Under the pieces are notes generated by a model. It was given only the letters and a program-made list of their open reading frames with translations, searched no databases and was not told the origin of the DNA. A program made the position numbers and the translations under genes. From Oceanibaculum indicum P24 (GTDB lineage: Bacteria; Pseudomonadota; Alphaproteobacteria; Oceanibaculales; Oceanibaculaceae), in contig NZ_AMRL01000005.1 in the NCBI RefSeq assembly GCF_000299935.1, forward strand, positions 62,001-126,000: DNA of 64,000 nucleotides, read 5' to 3'. This document shows positions 45,017-53,438 of the stretch, piece by piece. The first letter of the stretch is position 1; every line of letters starts with the position of its first letter.

Positions 45017-46813
45017 TCAGGCTGATTTCCGCATCGTCCAGCTGCGCCAGCCGCCGCTGGCGGTGATGTCGCGGGCGGTGGCCACGGCACAGGCCTCGCA
45101 CAGGAAGCCCGGCACCCAGCGCCCGTCCGCCAGCTCCACCTTGCCGATACCCAGCGGCGCGCCGATGCCGGCCAGGAATCCGCCCAGTTCGCTGGCAGGC
45201 AGGCTCCACAGCTCCCCGGCGATGGGGGCGCCGACGGACTCCTGCCGCACCAGGCCGGGGCGCGGCGGCACCAGATTATCCAGCGCATAGAGCCGGTAGT
45301 GGGGGGCTGTCTCGATCTCGCAGATCGGCGTGCCGCCACGGGCCAGCAATTCCCCGCTCAGCGGCAGGCCGCTCATATGGGCGCCGAACACCGCCAGTTC
45401 GATGCGGTCGCCCGCCGGCATGGCCAGGCTGGATTTCGGCAGCGTCTTGCCGGTGGCGCCCATGGTCACGCCAGCAGCTTCGTGCAGCGACGCGCCCAGC
45501 GCCAGCAGTGAGGCATCCGTAAAGGCCGGCGCGAACAGGGTGACGCCGAAGGGCAGCCCGTCCGGCTGGAAACCTGCCGGGACCGCGACGGCGGCGAGGT
45601 CGAACAGGTTCATGAAATTGGTGTAGTAGCCAAGCTGGCTGTTGAGGCGCACCGGATCGGCCTCCACATCGGCGATGCGGTGGATGGTGCCGGCGGTCGG
45701 TGTCAGCATGGCATCGACCTGTTCCCACGCCTTGCGCGCTTCCTGCGCCAGTTCCCGCAGCCTGTATTGCGCGCGGAAGGAATCGACCGCATCGAATTTC
45801 CAGCCGCCCTCGACAATGCCACGCACCACCGGATGGCCGGCATCGGGATTGGCCTTCAGGAAATCGCCGACGGCGGCGGTGCGCTCTGCCACCCACGGCC
45901 CTTCATAGAGCAGCCTTGCGGCTTCCAGGAAGGGTGTCAGGTCGATCTCCACCAGCGTCGCACCCAGATCGGTGCAGCGCCGCTTCGCCGCCTCGAACAG
46001 GGCCGGCGTGTGCGGGTTGCCGAAGAAGGCGAAGTCCGCCGCGCGCGGCACGCCAAGGCGCAGGCCCGCCCAGCCGGGCAGGGCAGGCGGGACCGCCGGC
46101 ATGGCGCGGGAGAAGGGCTCGCCCGCATCATACTGGCCGGCGACCGCCGCCACGGCGGCGGCGTCGCTACAGGTCAGCGCGAACACGGTCACGCAGTCCA
46201 GCGACCGGCAGGCCGGCACCACGCCGCGCGTGCTGACCAGCCCTAGGCTGCCCTTCCAGCCGACGAGATTGCAGAAGGCGGCGGGCACCCGGCCGGAGCC
46301 CGCCGTGTCGGTGCCCAGCGCGAAGCTGACCGCGCCGCCAGACACCGCGATGGCGGAGCCGGAGCTGGAGCCGCCCGACACATAGTCCGGGTCGAACGGG
46401 TTGCGGCCCGGCCCGTAGGGCGAGCGCGCGCCGACCAGCCCGGTGGCGAACTGGTCCAGATTGGTCTTGCCGATGAGGATGGCTCCAGCTTCGCGCAGCA
46501 GCGCGATGGCAGGCGCATCCGCCGCCGGCACATAGGCGAATTCCGGGCAGGCGGCGGTCGTCGGCAGGCCGCCCGCATCGATATTGTCCTTCACCGCGAA
46601 GGGCACGCCATAAAGCGGCAGCTCCGCGCGGTCACGGGACTTCAGCGCCTCCGCCTCCGCGAGGATGTCCTGTTCCTCACGGATCAGGATCCAGCCATTC
46701 AGCTCCGCTTGTGCCCGCGCACGGCGCAGGGCTTCCAGCGCTACATCGGCGGGGCTGCCGCCCTCCTCATAGAAGGCAGACAGCGCGGACAGGTCGAAGG
46801 AGAGATCACGCAT
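45017..46813 (-). CDS. atzF: Allophanate hydrolase-type amidase (AtzF-like)
   Basis: 598 residues, the length of AtzF. An amidase-signature domain (about 1-440) carries the Ser-cisSer-Lys triad: Lys75 (FAVKDNIDAGG), Ser149 (VSGGSSSGSA), Ser173 (TDTAGSGRVPAA), with spacing equal to AtzF (91, 165 and 189). A C-terminal domain (about 460-598: GDRIELAVFGAHMSGLPLSGEL, APHYRLYALDN) is the AtzF accessory domain. Allophanate hydrolases convert allophanate to ammonia and CO2. I chose ATG 46813, with AGGA 8 bases before, in an ATGCGTGA overlap with the regulator; ATG 46822 is the alternative. No urea carboxylase, biuret or cyanurate hydrolase gene is adjacent, so the source of allophanate, or the true substrate, is unknown. 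Confidence 0.9.
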   Translation of the reverse strand: MRDLSFDLSALSAFYEEGGSPADVALEALRRARAQAELNGWILIREEQDILAEAEALKSRDRAELPLYGVPFAVKDNIDAGGLPTTAACPEFAYVPAADAPAIALLREAGAILIGKTNLDQFATGLVGARSPYGPGRNPFDPDYVSGGSSSGSAIAVSGGAVSFALGTDTAGSGRVPAAFCNLVGWKGSLGLVSTRGVVPACRSLDCVTVFALTCSDAAAVAAVAGQYDAGEPFSRAMPAVPPALPGWAGLRLGVPRAADFAFFGNPHTPALFEAAKRRCTDLGATLVEIDLTPFLEAARLLYEGPWVAERTAAVGDFLKANPDAGHPVVRGIVEGGWKFDAVDSFRAQYRLRELAQEARKAWEQVDAMLTPTAGTIHRIADVEADPVRLNSQLGYYTNFMNLFDLAAVAVPAGFQPDGLPFGVTLFAPAFTDASLLALGASLHEAAGVTMGATGKTLPKSSLAMPAGDRIELAVFGAHMSGLPLSGELLARGGTPICEIETAPHYRLYALDNLVPPRPGLVRQESVGAPIAGELWSLPASELGGFLAGIGAPLGIGKVELADGRWVPGFLCEACAVATARDITASGGWRSWTMRKSA

Positions 46814-47507
46814 CGGAGGCATCCTGCGTCTGGGAGAGGTTCCGGTCGTTCACGAAGCCGGCGCTGGCGGCACTGACCACGATGACGTGGGAGCGCGCGG
46901 CCAGGGCGGCGGTTTCCGCATCGCCGCGCAGGATCGCGGTGACGATGGCCTCATGCTCGTCCCAGCTCTTGCGCAGGCGGCCCAGCACATGGAACTGGGC
47001 GCGGCGGAACGGGGCCAGCCGGCTGCGGGTGGAACTCACCAGATCGGCCAGATAGCCGGAATGGCAGCCCTCATAGATCAGCCCGTGGAACTGCATGTTG
47101 AAGGCGGAATAGTCCTCCAGCGCGCCGTCGCGCACCAGCTCCGCCGAGTGCTGGTGCATGTCGGATAGCGCCCTTCGCTCGCCGGCGGTCATGCGCTGGG
47201 CAGCAAGCCGGGCGCAGGCCGATTCCAGCTCTGCCATCGCCTCGAACATTTCGGTCAGGCGCTGGTCGGTGATGGTGGCGACGACACAGCCGCGGTTCGG
47301 CCTACGCTTCGCCAGCCCCATGGCGCAGAGCTGGCCCAGCGCCTCGCGTACCGGCGTGCGGGAGACGCCGAAGCGCTCCGCCATCTTCGGCTCGTCCAGC
47401 TTCTCGCCGGGCGGCAGCAATCCCTTCACGATGTCGTCGGCCAGCGCGCGCACCATCTCGTCCACCGTGGTGCCGGTGCGCAGCAGCCTTCTTTTTTGCT
47501 GCATCAT
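46806..47507 (-). CDS. GntR-family transcriptional regulator, FCD subfamily
   Basis: 233 residues. N-terminal winged helix (about 10-75): ADDIVKGLLPPGEKLDEPKMA, then FGVSRTPVREALGQLCAMGL, the SRTPVREAL signature. The C-terminal FCD domain (about 85-225) binds a metal and an organic-acid or amide ligand; MFEAMAELESACARLAA opens it and HEAIVTAILRGDAETA ends it, with the His residues for metal. It starts in an ATGATG overlap with the transporter ATPase stop and is probably the operon's own repressor. The perfect palindrome upstream of the operon is its likely site. Confidence 0.9.
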   Translation of the reverse strand: MMQQKRRLLRTGTTVDEMVRALADDIVKGLLPPGEKLDEPKMAERFGVSRTPVREALGQLCAMGLAKRRPNRGCVVATITDQRLTEMFEAMAELESACARLAAQRMTAGERRALSDMHQHSAELVRDGALEDYSAFNMQFHGLIYEGCHSGYLADLVSSTRSRLAPFRRAQFHVLGRLRKSWDEHEAIVTAILRGDAETAALAARSHVIVVSAASAGFVNDRNLSQTQDASDA

Positions 47508-49177
47508 GCGGGCATCTCTCCTGCCAGGCTGATCCCCTGATGAATTTCCGGCGGGTGCGGAATCGCGTCAAGCAGCGTGCGGGTATAGTCGCTGGCGGGC
47601 GCCTTCAGCACGGTCTCGGTCTCGCCTTCCTCGACGATCACCCCCTGACGCATGACCATGACACGGTCGCAGATCAGCCGCACCACGTTCAGATCGTGGC
47701 TGATGAACAGGTAGCTCATGCCCAGCTCGACCTTCAGGTCGGCCAGCAAATTCAGCACCACCGCCTGCACCGAGACGTCCAGCGCCGCCGTCGGCTCGTC
47801 CAGGATCACCAGCTTCGGGTCCAGCGCGATGGCCCGCGCGATGCCGACGCGTGCCTTTTGCCCGCCGGACAGCTGGTGCGGAAAACGGTCCAGCAACTCC
47901 ACCGGCAATCCCACCAGCCGAGCCAGCTCCTCGACGCGGGGACGGGCAGCATCCGTGCCCTTCAGCCCGCCCATCAGCAGCAGCGGGTCGGCGATGGATC
48001 GGAAGGCGCTCCAGCGCGGGTTCAGGCTGTCGGTCGGGTCCTGGAACACCATCTGCAGCTTGCTGCGCTTCGGCGCACGGGCAAAACGCGCGGCCGGCAT
48101 GGCGCCGATATCCTCGCCATCGAACAGGATGCTGCCGGATGTCGGGTCGGTCAGCCGCATCACCATGGCGGAGGTGGTGGATTTGCCGCAGCCGCTCTCG
48201 CCGACCAGCCCCAGGCTCTCGCCCTCATGCACGGTGAAGGAGATGCCATCGACTGCGCGGAAGGCGGGGCTGTCGCCACGCGGCGGGAATTCCTTCACCA
48301 GCTCGCGCACTTCCAGCAGCGGCTTGCCGCGTGGCACGGCGGCGGGGGCCGGGCGTGGTTCCGGCAGCAGGTCGCGGATGCGCGAATCCAGCCGCGGCGT
48401 GGCACGCAGCAGACGCTGCGTATAGGGGTGGGATGGCCGGTCGAACAGGCTGGCAGTGCGCGCCTGCTCCACCACCTTGCCCTTCTCCATGACGACGATG
48501 CGGTCGCAATAGGCCGCCGCGAGGCCAAGGTCATGGGTGATCAGGATGGCGGACATGCCGCGCTCGCGCGTCAGTTCGCGCATCAGATCCATCACCGTCT
48601 TCTGCGTGGTAACGTCCAGGCCGGTGGTCGGCTCGTCGGCGATCAGCAGCTGCGGCCGGCAGGCCAGCGCGATGGCGATCACGATGCGCTGGCACATGCC
48701 GCCCGACAGCTCGAACGGATAGGCGTGGTAGCGCTCCTCCGGGTTGGCGATCTTCACCGCGCGCAGCATCTCGATGGCGGCCTTCTTCGCCGTCGCGCGC
48801 ACGGCCAGCGCATGTTCGATCAGCACATCCTCGATCTGCCGCCCGACGCTGCGGATCGGGTTCAGCGCGGCGCGCGGATTCTGGAACACCATGGACATTT
48901 CGCGGCCGCGCAGCTCCGTCATCACCTTCTCGGGCGCGCTGTGCACCGGCACGCCGCCGAACACGATACTGCCCTCGGCGATGCGGCCGGCGCGGTCTAG
49001 GATGCGCATGACGGCGAAGGAGGTGACGGACTTGCCGGAGCCGGATTCGCCGACGATGCCGACCGTCTCGCCCTTGCCGACGGCGACGCTGACGCGTTCG
49101 ATGGCGCGCACCGTGCCGCGCCGCGTGGCGAACTCGACCGTAAGGTCCTTAACGTCGAGCAGCGGGATGGCGTTCAT
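47504..49177 (-). CDS. ABC transporter ATP-binding protein with two nucleotide-binding domains (DppD-DppF fused type)
   Basis: 557 residues in two ABC modules. NBD1: Walker A GIVGESGSGKSV, signature LSGGMCQRIVIA, Walker B LLIADEPTTGLD. NBD2 (from about 285): Walker A GLVGESGCGKST, signature LSGGQKARVGIA, Walker B LVILDEPTAALD. Each NBD is followed by the oligopeptide-type tail (TQRLLRATPRL and YTRTLLDAIPHPPEI). It powers the two permeases encoded upstream. ATG at 49177 has GAGGGAGG. One chain replaces the usual two. The operon order is binding protein, permease B, permease C, ATPase, regulator, amidase. Confidence 0.93.
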   Translation of the reverse strand: MNAIPLLDVKDLTVEFATRRGTVRAIERVSVAVGKGETVGIVGESGSGKSVTSFAVMRILDRAGRIAEGSIVFGGVPVHSAPEKVMTELRGREMSMVFQNPRAALNPIRSVGRQIEDVLIEHALAVRATAKKAAIEMLRAVKIANPEERYHAYPFELSGGMCQRIVIAIALACRPQLLIADEPTTGLDVTTQKTVMDLMRELTRERGMSAILITHDLGLAAAYCDRIVVMEKGKVVEQARTASLFDRPSHPYTQRLLRATPRLDSRIRDLLPEPRPAPAAVPRGKPLLEVRELVKEFPPRGDSPAFRAVDGISFTVHEGESLGLVGESGCGKSTTSAMVMRLTDPTSGSILFDGEDIGAMPAARFARAPKRSKLQMVFQDPTDSLNPRWSAFRSIADPLLLMGGLKGTDAARPRVEELARLVGLPVELLDRFPHQLSGGQKARVGIARAIALDPKLVILDEPTAALDVSVQAVVLNLLADLKVELGMSYLFISHDLNVVRLICDRVMVMRQGVIVEEGETETVLKAPASDYTRTLLDAIPHPPEIHQGISLAGEMPA

Positions 49178-49191
49178 GGTTCCGTCCTCCC

Positions 49192-50079
49192 TCAGGTGCG
49201 GCGCTGCGGATCGACGAGGTCGCGCAGACCGTCGCCCATCAGGTTGAAGGTGAAGACCGCCAGCATCAGCGCGGCACCGGGGAACAGCGCCAGCCACCAT
49301 TCGCCGGACATGATGAAGTTGGCCCCCTCGGCGACCATGATGCCCCATTCCGGTGTCGGCGGACGCACGCCCAGACCGATGAAGGACAGGCCGGCGGCAT
49401 TCAGGATCGCCCAGCCGAGATTGAGCGATATCTGCACCATCATTGGCGGCAGGGCATTCGGGAAAATATGTACTGCCAGCACGCGCAGATCGCTGTTGCC
49501 CGACAGCTTGGCGGCCTGCACGAAGCCGGCCTCGCGGCGGATGTTCACCTCGGCGCGGGCCATGCGGGCATAGAAGGGCAGGTTGATGATGGCGGTGGCG
49601 TAGATCACGTTCTCGATGGTGTTGCCCGCCGCCGCGACGATACCCATGGCCAGCACGAACAGCGGGAAGGCCATGATAGTATCGAGGCAGCGCCCGACGA
49701 TACGGTCGGTCCAGCCGCCATAATAGCCGGCGAGCGAGCCCAGCACCGATCCGGCGAGGAAGGACAGCGCCACGGCGGCGACGGAGATCGACAGGTCCAG
49801 CCTTGTGGCGATGACGACACGGGAGAACACGTCGCGGCCCAGATGGTCGGTGCCGAACCAGTGGCTCCAGGAGGGGGGCTGCAACGCGCGGTCGCCGCTC
49901 GTCGCCAGCGGATCATAGGGCACCAGCCAAGGGCCGAACAGCGCGGCCAGGACGAACATGCCGAACAGGGCGAAAGACAGGGCGGTCACCGGGTTGCTGG
50001 CCAGCACATAGCGGAAGTGCCGCCAGAAGCTGTTGCGCTTCGTTGCCGGGACTGCGGCCGGATCGGTCAGCGTGGTCAT
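49192..50079 (-). CDS. ABC transporter permease, DppC/OppC type
   Basis: 295 residues, about six membrane segments. N-terminal TM near 33-53, then the long periplasmic loop HWFGTDHLGRDVFSRVVIATR, diagnostic of DppC/OppC. The EAA loop that contacts the ATPase is VNIRREAGFVQAAKLSGNSD. C-terminal GLGVRPPTPEWGIMVAEG is typical. It ends 14 bases before the ATPase start and begins 3 bases after the stop of the DppB-type permease gene. Confidence 0.95.
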   Translation of the reverse strand: MTTLTDPAAVPATKRNSFWRHFRYVLASNPVTALSFALFGMFVLAALFGPWLVPYDPLATSGDRALQPPSWSHWFGTDHLGRDVFSRVVIATRLDLSISVAAVALSFLAGSVLGSLAGYYGGWTDRIVGRCLDTIMAFPLFVLAMGIVAAAGNTIENVIYATAIINLPFYARMARAEVNIRREAGFVQAAKLSGNSDLRVLAVHIFPNALPPMMVQISLNLGWAILNAAGLSFIGLGVRPPTPEWGIMVAEGANFIMSGEWWLALFPGAALMLAVFTFNLMGDGLRDLVDPQRRT

Positions 50080-50082
50080 GGC

Positions 50083-51129
50083 TCAGTCCTCCAGCCGCAG
50101 GCGCGGATCGACCAGCGTATAGACGATGTCGATGGTCAGGTTCAGGGCGACAAACAACAGCGCCATCGCCAGCACGAAGCCCTGCACGGCGGCATAGTCG
50201 GAGACCACCAGCGCCTCGATGGCGTAGGAGCCGATGCCCGGCCAGGCGAATACCTTCTCGACCAGCACATTGGCGCCCAGCGCGAAGGAGAACACCATGC
50301 CCAGCGTTGTGATGACCGGCAGCAGCGCGTTGCGGAAGCCATAGGCGAACAGCACCTTGCGCTTCGACAGGCCGGCGGCGCGGGCGGTGCGGATGAAGTC
50401 GCTGCCCAGCACCTGCAGCATGGAGGCGCGCGTCATGCGGGCGATGGGGGCGAGCGTGAACAGCGCCAGCGTCAGCGCCGGCAGGGCAATATGGGCCAGC
50501 GCGCTGCCGAAGGCGCCGATATCGCCGGCCAGCAGGGAATCGATGGTGTAGAAGCCGGTCACATGGGCGGGCGGCAGGTAGAGGATATCCAGCCGGCCCA
50601 TTGGCGGCGGCGCCCAGCCCAGCAGGTAATAGAACAGATAGACCAGCGCCAGGCCGGTGAAGAAGGTCGGCAGCGACACGCCGGCGGTCACCACGAAGCG
50701 ACACAGATGGTCTATCCAGCTGTCCGGCCGGGTGGCGGCCAGCACGCCCAGCGGTACGGCGATGGCGATGGACATCATCAGGGCGATCAGCGTCAGCTCG
50801 ACCGAGGCGGGCAGGCGCGTGAGGATTTCGTGCAGCACCGGCTGGCCGGTCGAGATCGACATGCCGAGATTGCCGGTCACGAGGTCGCCGAGATAGGCCA
50901 GGAACTGGATCGGCAGCGGCTGATCGAGGCCCAGACTCTTGCGGATTTCCGCGATCGAGGCGGCGTCGGCGGCGGGGCCGGCGAAATAGACCGCCGGGTC
51001 GCCGGGCAGCGCGCGGGTCAGCAGGAAGGTAACGATCACGATGCCCGCGAGGGCGGGCACCGCCTGCAACAGGCGGCGCCCGACAAGCCGGACCTTGGGC
51101 GGCATGGCCACCAGGATGGAGATGCCCAT
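50083..51129 (-). CDS. ABC transporter permease, DppB/OppB type
   Basis: 348 residues with six predicted membrane segments. RRLLQAVPALAGIVIVTFLLTRALPGDPA is the DppB N-terminus (TM1 with the ALPGDP turn). The EAA-like loop is MTRASMLQVLGSDFIRTARAAGLS, and the C-terminal TM pair ends in LTIDIVYTLVDPRLRL, the usual close of the family. It lies 15 bases after the binding-protein stop. Together with the DppC-type partner it forms the channel of a nickel/peptide-type importer; actual cargo is unknown. Confidence 0.95.
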   Translation of the reverse strand: MGISILVAMPPKVRLVGRRLLQAVPALAGIVIVTFLLTRALPGDPAVYFAGPAADAASIAEIRKSLGLDQPLPIQFLAYLGDLVTGNLGMSISTGQPVLHEILTRLPASVELTLIALMMSIAIAVPLGVLAATRPDSWIDHLCRFVVTAGVSLPTFFTGLALVYLFYYLLGWAPPPMGRLDILYLPPAHVTGFYTIDSLLAGDIGAFGSALAHIALPALTLALFTLAPIARMTRASMLQVLGSDFIRTARAAGLSKRKVLFAYGFRNALLPVITTLGMVFSFALGANVLVEKVFAWPGIGSYAIEALVVSDYAAVQGFVLAMALLFVALNLTIDIVYTLVDPRLRLED

Positions 51130-51144: not shown

Positions 51145-52764
51145 TTACGCGGTCTTGAAGGTGAGCGTCCGCACGTCCGGCATGCGGTGGAACCAGAACT
51201 CGTAACCCTCCACGCCCGGGCGCATGGCGGTGTCGAGATAGGGCTGGTAGAGCGGGATGCGCGGCACGTCGTCGAACGCCTTGGCGATCATCCGCTTGAT
51301 CTTCGGGGCGTAGTCCGGGTTGTCCATCGGCATGTGCAGCGTCTCGTTGATGAGCTGCATCATCTCCGCATCGTCATAGTTCGACGCATTGAACAGGTTG
51401 CCCTTCACATAGGCCCAGAAGAAGTAATAGTCCGGCGTGTTCAGCCAGCCGCCGAAATTGTCCAGCAGCAGCGGCAGCTTCTTCTCGACCAGCGCCACGG
51501 TGCGCCAGTTGGCGCCCGGGATCTTGTCGATGGTCGCCTTGATGCCGATCTTCGCCAGCCCTTCCTGGATCAGCAGGGCCGTCGGCTCGCCCCAGGAGGC
51601 GGTACCGAGGTCAAAGGACAGCGGCACCTCGAAGCCATCCTTGTAGGGCGTCTGGGCCAGCAGTTCCTTCGCCTTGTCGTAGTCGGTGGTGTAGGGGAAG
51701 GGCTGCGGCCAGGCGATATCCGTCGGCTCCATGCTGGCGCCGCCCCACATCTTGGCGCCGCGCTCATAGGCGGCGTTCTTGTGGATTTCCTCATAGGGCA
51801 CCGCATAGGCGATGGCCTGGCGTACCAGCTTGTTCTTGAACGGCTCGAAGATCAGGTTCGGGCACAGCACATGCAGGCAGTTCTCGATCGGCGTGCCGAC
51901 CACCTTCACGCTCTTCAGTGCCGCCAGCTCCTTCGCGTCCTTCGCCGGAATGTCGTGCGACAGATGCACGTCGCCGCGCTCGATCAGCGCCCGGCGGGTC
52001 GCCTGCGAGGGAATCTCGCGCACGATGATGCGCTTGGCGGCGGGCAGCGGGCCGCCCTTCCAGGCGTCGTTGCGGCTATAGACCAGCTGCTGGCCCGGGT
52101 CCCAGCGTTCCACCTTGTAGGCGCCGGAACCGGCCGGGTTGCGGTGCAGATACTCCATCGCCCACGGGTCCTTCTCCGTGGCGTTCGCCTTGGCGACCTT
52201 GGAATTGATGATGAAGGGTACCGGCACGGCAAGGTCGGGCAGCGTCAGCTTCGACTGGCGCAGGAAGTTGATCTTGAAGGTCTTGGCATCGACCACCTCG
52301 AACTGCTCCGGCTTTTCCAGCGAGCCGGCCTTCATCTGCACGGTCGGGAAGCCACCGACGGAGACGGCGCGGTCGAGCGACCATTTCACGTCTTCCGCCG
52401 TCACCGGGCTGCCATCCCAGAAGGTGGCATCCTTCAGCTTGAAGGTGACGGAGTTGCCGTCCGGCGCGATCTCCCAGCTTTCCGCCAGCTCGCCTTCCAG
52501 CTTGGAATAATCGTAGCTGAGCGAGCCGTCCGGCATGGTCTTGGTGCCGAAGGTCAGCAGCCGGTCATAGCAGTTCACCGAGACCTGATAGCTTGGCCGG
52601 TTGGTGCCGGTGCGATGCAGGTCCAGGCTGTTGATCGTGCTGCCGATCACCACGACCAGCGTGTCGGCGGCGGCAGCGGAGGCGGGCAGGACCTTGAGGA
52701 AGGGCAGCATGCCGGCGCCGAGAGCGACGCTGGTGCCGGCCTTGAGGAAGTCTCTCCGGTTCAT
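51145..52764 (-). CDS. ABC transporter substrate-binding protein, family 5 (dipeptide/oligopeptide type)
   Basis: 539 residues. N-terminal signal with NRRDFLKAG (twin-arginine type) and hydrophobic ALGAGMLPFLKVLP, cleavage expected near ASAAA, so a periplasmic protein. Family-5 landmarks: LDLHRTGTNRPSYQVSVNCYDRL, GELAESWEIAPDGNSVTFKLKDATFWDGSPVTAEDVKWSLDRAV, and VRQAIAYAVPYEEI. C-terminal PDVRTLTFKTA. First gene of the operon; ATG at 52764 has AAGGATAA. Cargo could be a peptide, but because the last gene is an allophanate-type amidase, a urea-like or amide ligand is possible. That is inference. Confidence 0.93.
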   Translation of the reverse strand: MNRRDFLKAGTSVALGAGMLPFLKVLPASAAAADTLVVVIGSTINSLDLHRTGTNRPSYQVSVNCYDRLLTFGTKTMPDGSLSYDYSKLEGELAESWEIAPDGNSVTFKLKDATFWDGSPVTAEDVKWSLDRAVSVGGFPTVQMKAGSLEKPEQFEVVDAKTFKINFLRQSKLTLPDLAVPVPFIINSKVAKANATEKDPWAMEYLHRNPAGSGAYKVERWDPGQQLVYSRNDAWKGGPLPAAKRIIVREIPSQATRRALIERGDVHLSHDIPAKDAKELAALKSVKVVGTPIENCLHVLCPNLIFEPFKNKLVRQAIAYAVPYEEIHKNAAYERGAKMWGGASMEPTDIAWPQPFPYTTDYDKAKELLAQTPYKDGFEVPLSFDLGTASWGEPTALLIQEGLAKIGIKATIDKIPGANWRTVALVEKKLPLLLDNFGGWLNTPDYYFFWAYVKGNLFNASNYDDAEMMQLINETLHMPMDNPDYAPKIKRMIAKAFDDVPRIPLYQPYLDTAMRPGVEGYEFWFHRMPDVRTLTFKTA

Positions 52765-52794
52765 GGCGGGTTATCCTTCGACAGTGGAACTGCC

Positions 52795-52810
52795 AAAGTG
52801 CATGCACTTT
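52795..52810. promoter_or_regulatory. Perfect 16-bp palindrome, candidate operator of the ABC/amidase operon
   Basis: AAAGTGCATGCACTTT, its own reverse complement, lies 30 bases upstream of the binding-protein ATG. GntR/FCD proteins bind short palindromes like this near start codons. The regulator gene is in the same operon, so autoregulation would follow. No second copy was noticed elsewhere in the window. Confidence 0.65.
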
Positions 52811-52885
52811 CCGGGCCAGTCGGTTACTTCAAATTTATGTCATTTAATTCAATGTATTATCTGTCTTGATCAGAAGCCTTTGGAT

Positions 52886-52935
52886 TCTCCAAAAACTGGA
52901 GAGATCAAAAAATAGGCGATGCAATTTTATTGCAT
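52886..52935. promoter_or_regulatory. AT-rich segment with two hairpins upstream of the operon
   Basis: TCTCCA-5-TGGAGA at 52886-52902 and ATGCAAT-3-ATTGCAT at 52919-52935. Both lie in an unusually AT-rich stretch (about 52825-52945) between the ABC operon start and the DUF983 stop. They may be extra operator sites, or the end of an undetected transcript. No gene is seen in this 287-base gap. Confidence 0.4.
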
Positions 52936-53051
52936 AAAAATTGGACACAGATATGGCCGCGAATATCGGGCATCAAAAACGCATCGGCCCGGGATGTGCC
53001 CCAGGCCGATGGAAAACGGTTCAGCGATGGTCGGGATCGGCGGGTGCCGCG

Positions 53052-53438
53052 TCAGCTCCGCTCGGAGCCTTCCGCCTTCAGCGCCCACATCAGCGACAGG
53101 ACAGCGCCCTTGCAGCGCGGCAGCAACAGCAGGGTCAGCGCCAGCGTGATCACCGACCAGCCGATGCCCTGCAGCCAGATATCGGGCTGGTAGGCACGCT
53201 CCAGCCACAGCATCGGCGGCATGACGAGATGGGCGACGATGAAGACCGTCAGCCACGGCGGCATGTCGTCGGCACGGAAATGGCCATAGGCCTCGCCGCA
53301 ATGGCTGCAGGCGGGCGTCACCTTCAGGTAGGCATGCAGCAGGCCAGGCGTGCCGCATTTCGGACATCGGCGCTGCAGGCCGCGCCACAGCACGGTCGGC
53401 AGGGACGGAGGAAGGCGCAGGGCGTTCACGGCTTTCAT
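53052..53438 (-). CDS. DUF983 family protein
   Basis: 128 residues. Near the N-terminus LQRRCPKCGTPGLLHAYLKV and then ACSHCGEAYG give a four-cysteine zinc-finger-like unit; two membrane segments follow (about 62-79 and 91-108). This matches DUF983, common in alphaproteobacteria, often near cytochrome-oxidase assembly genes; function unproven. ATG at 53438. It has no close partner here; the fused ABC exporter starts far upstream on the same strand, with 103 bases between the exporter stop and this start region. Confidence 0.88.
   Translation of the reverse strand: MKAVNALRLPPSLPTVLWRGLQRRCPKCGTPGLLHAYLKVTPACSHCGEAYGHFRADDMPPWLTVFIVAHLVMPPMLWLERAYQPDIWLQGIGWSVITLALTLLLLPRCKGAVLSLMWALKAEGSERS

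Follow-up and report, generated by a model that had tools for sequence, protein, structure and literature searches.

The operon and its upstream palindrome

The window, by which we mean the whole stretch of 64,000 nucleotides that was analysed, contains a minus-strand operon of six genes for a binding protein, two permeases, a double ATPase, a GntR/FCD regulator and an allophanate hydrolase (Table 1). The genes overlap or are separated by gaps of at most 15 bp, the regulator gene overlapping both the ATPase and the hydrolase genes, and one promoter is therefore likely for the operon; the start codon of the ATPase gene was picked by eye, and its open frame extends to 49348. A preliminary description of the locus had spoken of an ABC/amidase operon: the ABC transporter genes are indeed present, while the "amidase" is more precisely an allophanate hydrolase (AtzF), which joins an amidase domain to the allophanate hydrolase C-terminal domain (over the family cut-off) and passes the cut-offs of NF006043 and TIGR02713. 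The regulator consists of a GntR winged-helix domain and an FCD domain, PF00392 and PF07729 both scoring over their cut-offs, and belongs to no named NCBIfam family; as the best of these, TIGR03338, reaches 119 bits against a cut-off of 271.5, we give the protein no named function. A search of the focal genome returned no urea carboxylase over cut-off and, for biuret hydrolase, weak partial relatives only (27-36%). A DUF983 gene on the minus strand (53052-53438) is followed by a terminator-like stem-loop with a T tail at window positions 52982-53011, which would shield the operon against read-through.

The palindrome AAAGTGCATGCACTTT lies 30 bp upstream of the minus-strand ATG of the binding protein gene, which begins at 52764, and is perfectly symmetric over 16 bp and not over 18; on both the symmetry and the distance, the preliminary description was correct. 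No second match exists in the window, even with up to three mismatches allowed, and the recurrence before other operons that the same description had thought worth looking for did not appear, the focal site being the one perfect copy in the draft genome (3.95 Mb, 98% complete). Two more places match with two mismatches and, judged by eye, neither has sigma-54 spacing. Elsewhere in the genome, AAATTGCATGCACTAT (L002:1501-1516, or C3:96009-96024) stands about 70 bp before an ATG that looks like the start of an aminotransferase gene, and is perhaps the operator of a different FCD regulator. As a bare 16-mer palindrome, AAAGTGCATGCACTTT is not above chance: the window holds four perfect ones, and about 2.2 are expected from its base composition. 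The features that do exceed chance, both described below, are the conservation of place and sequence within the genus (four of four genomes) and the density of the motif family, which is raised roughly 100-fold upstream of the regulator and its partner genes.

Table 1. Positions of the operon genes and of the features upstream of them within the window.
Feature	Position	Strand	Remarks
Allophanate hydrolase, last operon gene	45017..46822	-	NF006043, TIGR02713, PF01425 + PF21986
GntR/FCD regulator, operon gene 5	46806..47507	-	PF00392 60.7 bits, PF07729 99.7 bits
Double ATPase	47504..49177	-	PF00005 twice, PF08352
Dpp/Opp-type permease C	49192..50079	-	PF00528, PF12911
Dpp/Opp-type permease B	50083..51129	-	PF00528, PF19300
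Family 5 solute-binding protein (SBP), operon gene 1	51145..52764	-	PF00496
Predicted transcription start	52792	-	12 bases after the -12 C; placed by sigma-54 geometry
Palindrome AAAGTGCATGCACTTT	52795..52810	.	Predicted FCD-regulator operator; spans about -18 to -3 relative to the predicted start
GTGCA, predicted sigma-54 -12 element inside the palindrome	52803..52807	-	Exact N5 from TGGCCC
TGGCCC, predicted sigma-54 -24 element	52813..52818	-	Invariant in 4/4 congeners
TAATACATTGAAT, IHF-like sequence, tentative	52847..52859	-	Same offset and orientation in 4/4 congeners

Conservation within the genus and a predicted sigma-54 promoter

Four genomes represent the order; they belong to a single genus and count the focal one among them, and each has one regulator match at E <= 1e-30, with 79-90% identity. 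A lack of conservation, named in the preliminary description as speaking against the site, was not observed: in all four, AAGTGCATGCACTT is invariant, as are 14 of the 16 palindrome bases, and the distance from the palindrome to the start codon is 30, 30, 32 and 32 bp. Invariant runs of at least four bases in the aligned upstream regions are AAGTGCATGCACTT, the CATG at the start codon and TGGCCC, the last being the sole one upstream of the palindrome; invariant columns make up 8% of the alignment upstream of this block and 26% between the palindrome and the ATG.

The sigma-54 consensus is TGGCAC-N5-TTGCW. TGGCCC, one base off that consensus, stands at exactly the -24/-12 spacing from a GTGCA, itself one base off TTGCA, and because of this spacing, we read half of the palindrome as the predicted -12 element. 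The resulting TGGCCC-N5-GTGCA keeps the GG and the GC intact and differs from the consensus at two bases. The pairwise identity within the genus, which was not selected for the motif in this comparison, is 100% in the -24 box and 95% in the palindrome core, dropping to 60% in the N5 spacer and 36-44% in the flanks. The geometry predicts that the leader measures 28 nt and carries GAAGGA ahead of the ATG, and rpoN is present in the focal genome (PF04552, E 1.4e-66), where TGGC-N7-KTGCATGCA occurs once without mismatch and three times with one (L158 among them). The preliminary description had placed the palindrome between a promoter and the ribosome site. That position is not supported, the palindrome overlapping the predicted sigma-54 promoter; a sigma-70-type promoter was rejected, no candidate having been found in 52700-53060. 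Farther upstream, the best IHF-like match has the same offset and orientation in all four congeners, with 1, 2, 1 and 0 mismatches, and, taken singly, the match beats shuffles in one of the four.

In the focal genus, the outer base of both predicted operator halves is G in place of T. The recognition helix SRTPVREA is nearly identical in the groups with T-type and G-type operators, and its comparison pointed to no residue as the determinant of the change.

The motif family in loci with related regulators

A class-wide search of 385 genomes gave a regulator match at E <= 1e-40 in 48, and a search of named genomes gave at least 595 confirmed stretches, of which the best 80 were kept. With 40 class-wide regions, 80 named-genome loci and the window itself, we compared 121 loci, many of them related and some possibly representing the same species twice. 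The upstream regions, 450 bp before the starts of the regulator, SBP and hydrolase genes, total 86 kb; matches were left out if they began beyond residue 60, as were hydrolase matches of less than 250 bits. The motif [TG]TGYATRCA[AC] has 81 sites in these 86 kb versus 20 in the other 2.19 Mb of the loci, a density about 100-fold higher than elsewhere, and stands upstream of the regulator, SBP or hydrolase gene in 63 of the 121 loci, the strict site being absent upstream in the remaining 58. Among 120 half-site permutations, its enrichment ranks second, ranks 1, 3 and 4 being taken by versions of a GT-TA-AC theme that are able to overlap the motif.

Palindromes of the types TTGCATGCAA, TTGTATACAA and GTGCATGCAC lie upstream of the regulator or the operon in related loci. 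Outside the genus, the nearest regulators (L037-L040, with 57-62% identity) are accompanied by TTGCATGCAA without sigma-54 spacing and many more distant ones by TTGTATACAA, and GTGCATGCAC was found also in Mesorhizobium (L078). With GT/AC read loosely as G[TC]/[GA]C, the palindromes upstream in the 63 loci are of the TKGT/ACMA type. The idea of an operator is supported by the invariance of AAGTGCATGCACTT in the congeners together with the upstream enrichment of the family, and the preliminary description's suggestion of a GntR/FCD repressor site can be given more substance: a regulator of this type is encoded in the same operon, and the loci of its relatives carry similar palindromes upstream. 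The cluster of transporter, regulator and allophanate hydrolase is itself conserved in L042-L044, L092-L101 and other loci of Alphaproteobacteria such as Bradyrhizobium, and often contains an extra amidase with 30-35% identity to the hydrolase.

We counted TGGC at each offset on both strands of the 81 motif sites. In 17 loci it precedes the 10-mer by seven bases, and no other offset between 0 and 24 collects more than five loci; with the cores restricted to those containing GC, the count is 16 loci versus at most five over spacings 2 to 15. The 17 loci represent about four lineages, offset 3 gathers three lineages too (L037-L039, L040 and L100), and since the loci are related, the count is not decisive alone; as the 17 are not independent, we give more weight to the footprint of conservation. 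Three of the offset-7 matches (L060, L062 and L097) mostly lack the GC of the -12 element. At offset 3, the sites L037:8973, L038:9365 and L039:9771, from one genus, have TTGGCA three bases before TTGCATGCAA, and L040 and L100 have TGGC likewise on one strand, the spacing in none of these being that of sigma-54. Before the allophanate hydrolase gene of L042 (7319), L043 (7389) and L044 (11984), the operators are TTGCATACCA/AA/AC, and the sigma-54 -24 position is occupied by GG, as TGGCAG, CGGTAT and CGGTAT, respectively; these loci, of one family, are a possible further lineage of the composite of operator and promoter.

The composite can be judged with less selection in L075-L086, the 12 best named-genome regulator matches among those listed, which are all Rhizobiales by title and were chosen by the regulator alone. 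TGGCAY-N5-TTGCW is found divergent from the regulator in 12 of the 12, and in ten of them the promoter is fused with a strict operator (TTGCATRCAC); L079 has the sigma-54 elements with a degraded operator, TTGCACGCAG, and L080 has them without an operator (TGGCACAAGGTTTGCT). Since these two lack an intact operator and L037-L040 lack the spacing, the fusion is not obligatory. The ten composites share ancestry, and their identity is 92% in the -24 box, 95% in the core, 56% in N5 and 35-37% in the flanks, part of the 92% arising by construction, as the ten were picked for TGGC at that place. Nine of the ten are followed, at a distance of 57-74 bases, by the beginning of an open frame that has a twin-arginine-like start. 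In all ten, the half towards the sigma-54 -24 box reads TTGCA and the opposite half GTGYA, whereas the focal genus has GTGCA on both sides; we read this pattern as two constraints that would meet on one base. Among 14 composites searched with the NtrC consensus, at most one, L082 (P 0.04), had a site that beat shuffled sequence; the other 13, the focal promoter among them, had none. A second regulator-type site lies between the composite and the regulator gene in L077, L083, L084 and L086 (79 bp) and in L078 (91 bp), and may act on the promoter of the regulator gene or in looping.

On a plasmid of R. leguminosarum TA1 (L168), the composite TGGCACATACATTGCATGCAC stands 59 bases before the first gene of an operon that, by its annotation, starts with a BMP-family binding protein, two permeases, a formamidase, a cysteine hydrolase and atzD, and ends with an ATPase, a cysteine hydrolase and a short allophanate hydrolase entry, the GntR regulator being divergent. 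L085 encodes a cysteine hydrolase that matches biuret hydrolases of solved structure, 6azo (presumably BiuH) at E 5.6e-157 and 6xjm at E 2.5e-100. A full-length-type hydrolase relative is encoded downstream on the same strand in five of the ten composite loci (L075-L078 and L082) and on the other side in L086; in L081 and L083-L085, none was seen within the DNA examined. Bauldia (L087) has a composite at the head of a similar operon, which lies about 10 kb from the regulator and encodes an allophanate hydrolase and a cysteine hydrolase; the best match of the latter is 6xix, followed by the biuret hydrolase 6xjm.

A predicted operator over a predicted sigma-54 promoter

Judged from the sequence comparisons, the palindrome is very probably the binding site of the operon's own GntR-type repressor. 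The fuller reading, in which the operator of the FCD-type regulator overlies the predicted sigma-54 -12 element, we consider likely on the basis of sequence, conservation, spacing, gene content and the presence of rpoN. As the palindrome holds part of the predicted promoter, the repressor would be in competition with RNA polymerase for this DNA: we infer that a regulator dimer binding at about -18 to -3 would repress rather than activate, either excluding the sigma-54 RNA polymerase or stopping promoter opening, and, with the regulator gene sitting in the operon, would also hold down its own expression. To turn the operon on, two steps would be needed: release of the regulator by an inducer, for which the imported substrate or allophanate is a plausible candidate, and opening of the promoter by a nitrogen-responsive enhancer-binding protein that acts from upstream, perhaps with the help of IHF. 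Nitrogen-type activation would in this way be gated by a specific repressor before genes for scavenging the nitrogen of allophanate. For a wider alphaproteobacterial switch for nitrogen sources of allophanate/biuret type, in which the FCD half-site supplies the -12 bases, two proteins thereby constrain one sequence, and the focal genus gained a fully symmetric operator at the cost of a weaker -12 element, we see the chances as evenly balanced.

The palindrome could be an operator only, with a promoter of another type and TGGCCC belonging elsewhere, for example to an activator site. The focal -24 and -12 elements each deviate from the consensus, sigma-54 spacing is missing beside the operator in many relatives, and alphaproteobacterial sigma-70-type promoters can be hard to recognise. 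The exact spacing in all four congeners and the contrast between an invariant box and a diverged N5, on the other hand, speak against this, as does the (near-)consensus sigma-54 promoter in every one of the 12 Rhizobiales loci, even where the operator is degraded; together with the failure to find a sigma-70-type promoter, they make this operator-only reading unlikely. Quite unlikely, in our estimate, is that another FCD paralogue binds the palindrome, or that the operon's regulator acts as an activator. FCD operators do resemble each other (PMC4494728), and the genome has 27 first-look regulator candidates, though one match at E <= 1e-30; the type of site, nevertheless, goes with the relatives of this regulator in lineages with differing partner genes, and a protein bound at -18 to -3 would block the polymerase. 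That the palindrome arose by chance, some two perfect 16-mers being expected per window, or was conserved for another reason such as RNA structure or a different protein is highly improbable given its invariance amid diverged surroundings, the upstream enrichment of its family and a leader RNA that folds no better than shuffled sequence (z -0.04), for which reason an RNA hairpin was rejected and the palindrome is read as a DNA site.

The proposed arrangement combines elements of known kinds. Operators of the FadR (FCD) subfamily of GntR proteins have a consensus of TKGT/ACMA boxes (PMC4494728), and, as far as the part of that source considered goes, the focal site resembles them in being a short A/T-flanked palindrome with two bases between the boxes, beside the regulated operon of a regulator with GntR and FCD domains; it differs in the GTGC-AT-GCAC of the focal genus, with an outer G and an inner C, and in overlapping the predicted -12 element. 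At the Pseudomonas hutU promoter region used by NtrC and CbrB, the GntR-family protein HutC is a local repressor on a nitrogen/carbon catabolic operon, much as proposed here, and HutC, CbrB and NtrC share binding sequences, the portion of the paper considered stating no -12 element inside the HutC operator (PMC8871633). HutC belongs to the HutC subfamily, the focal regulator to the FCD subfamily. A further parallel is AtzR of Pseudomonas sp. ADP, the regulator of the pathway from cyanuric acid to allophanate, which represses its own sigma-54 promoter PatzR by site overlap; unlike the FCD regulator, AtzR is a LysR-type protein. The cyanuric acid/biuret pathway of R. leguminosarum passes through allophanate, according to the parts considered of three sources (PMC5806882, PMC7948467, PMC6219798), and its operon shares the composite promoter with the focal one and has an FCD regulator related to the focal regulator. 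It differs in that its transporter is of the BMP type and unrelated, its regulator is divergent, and it contains atzD and cysteine hydrolases. One figure legend, on ammonia oxidisers, in the portion considered of PMC12625717, names a gene of the gntR type next to biuret genes. In the literature searched, largely without subscription papers, we found no description of an operator for these allophanate/biuret operons, nor of an FCD half-site doubling as a sigma-54 -12 element.

Overall, FCD operator and sigma-54 promoter are both of known kinds, and the predicted arrangement is known control in an unusually tight form. It offers a concrete prediction of both for a regulator that goes with the breakdown of allophanate and, among Rhizobiales, of biuret and cyanuric acid. 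If true, it would be a clean case of a repressor and a sigma-54 polymerase reading identical base pairs, and would be useful for studying the evolution of a sequence under two recognition codes.
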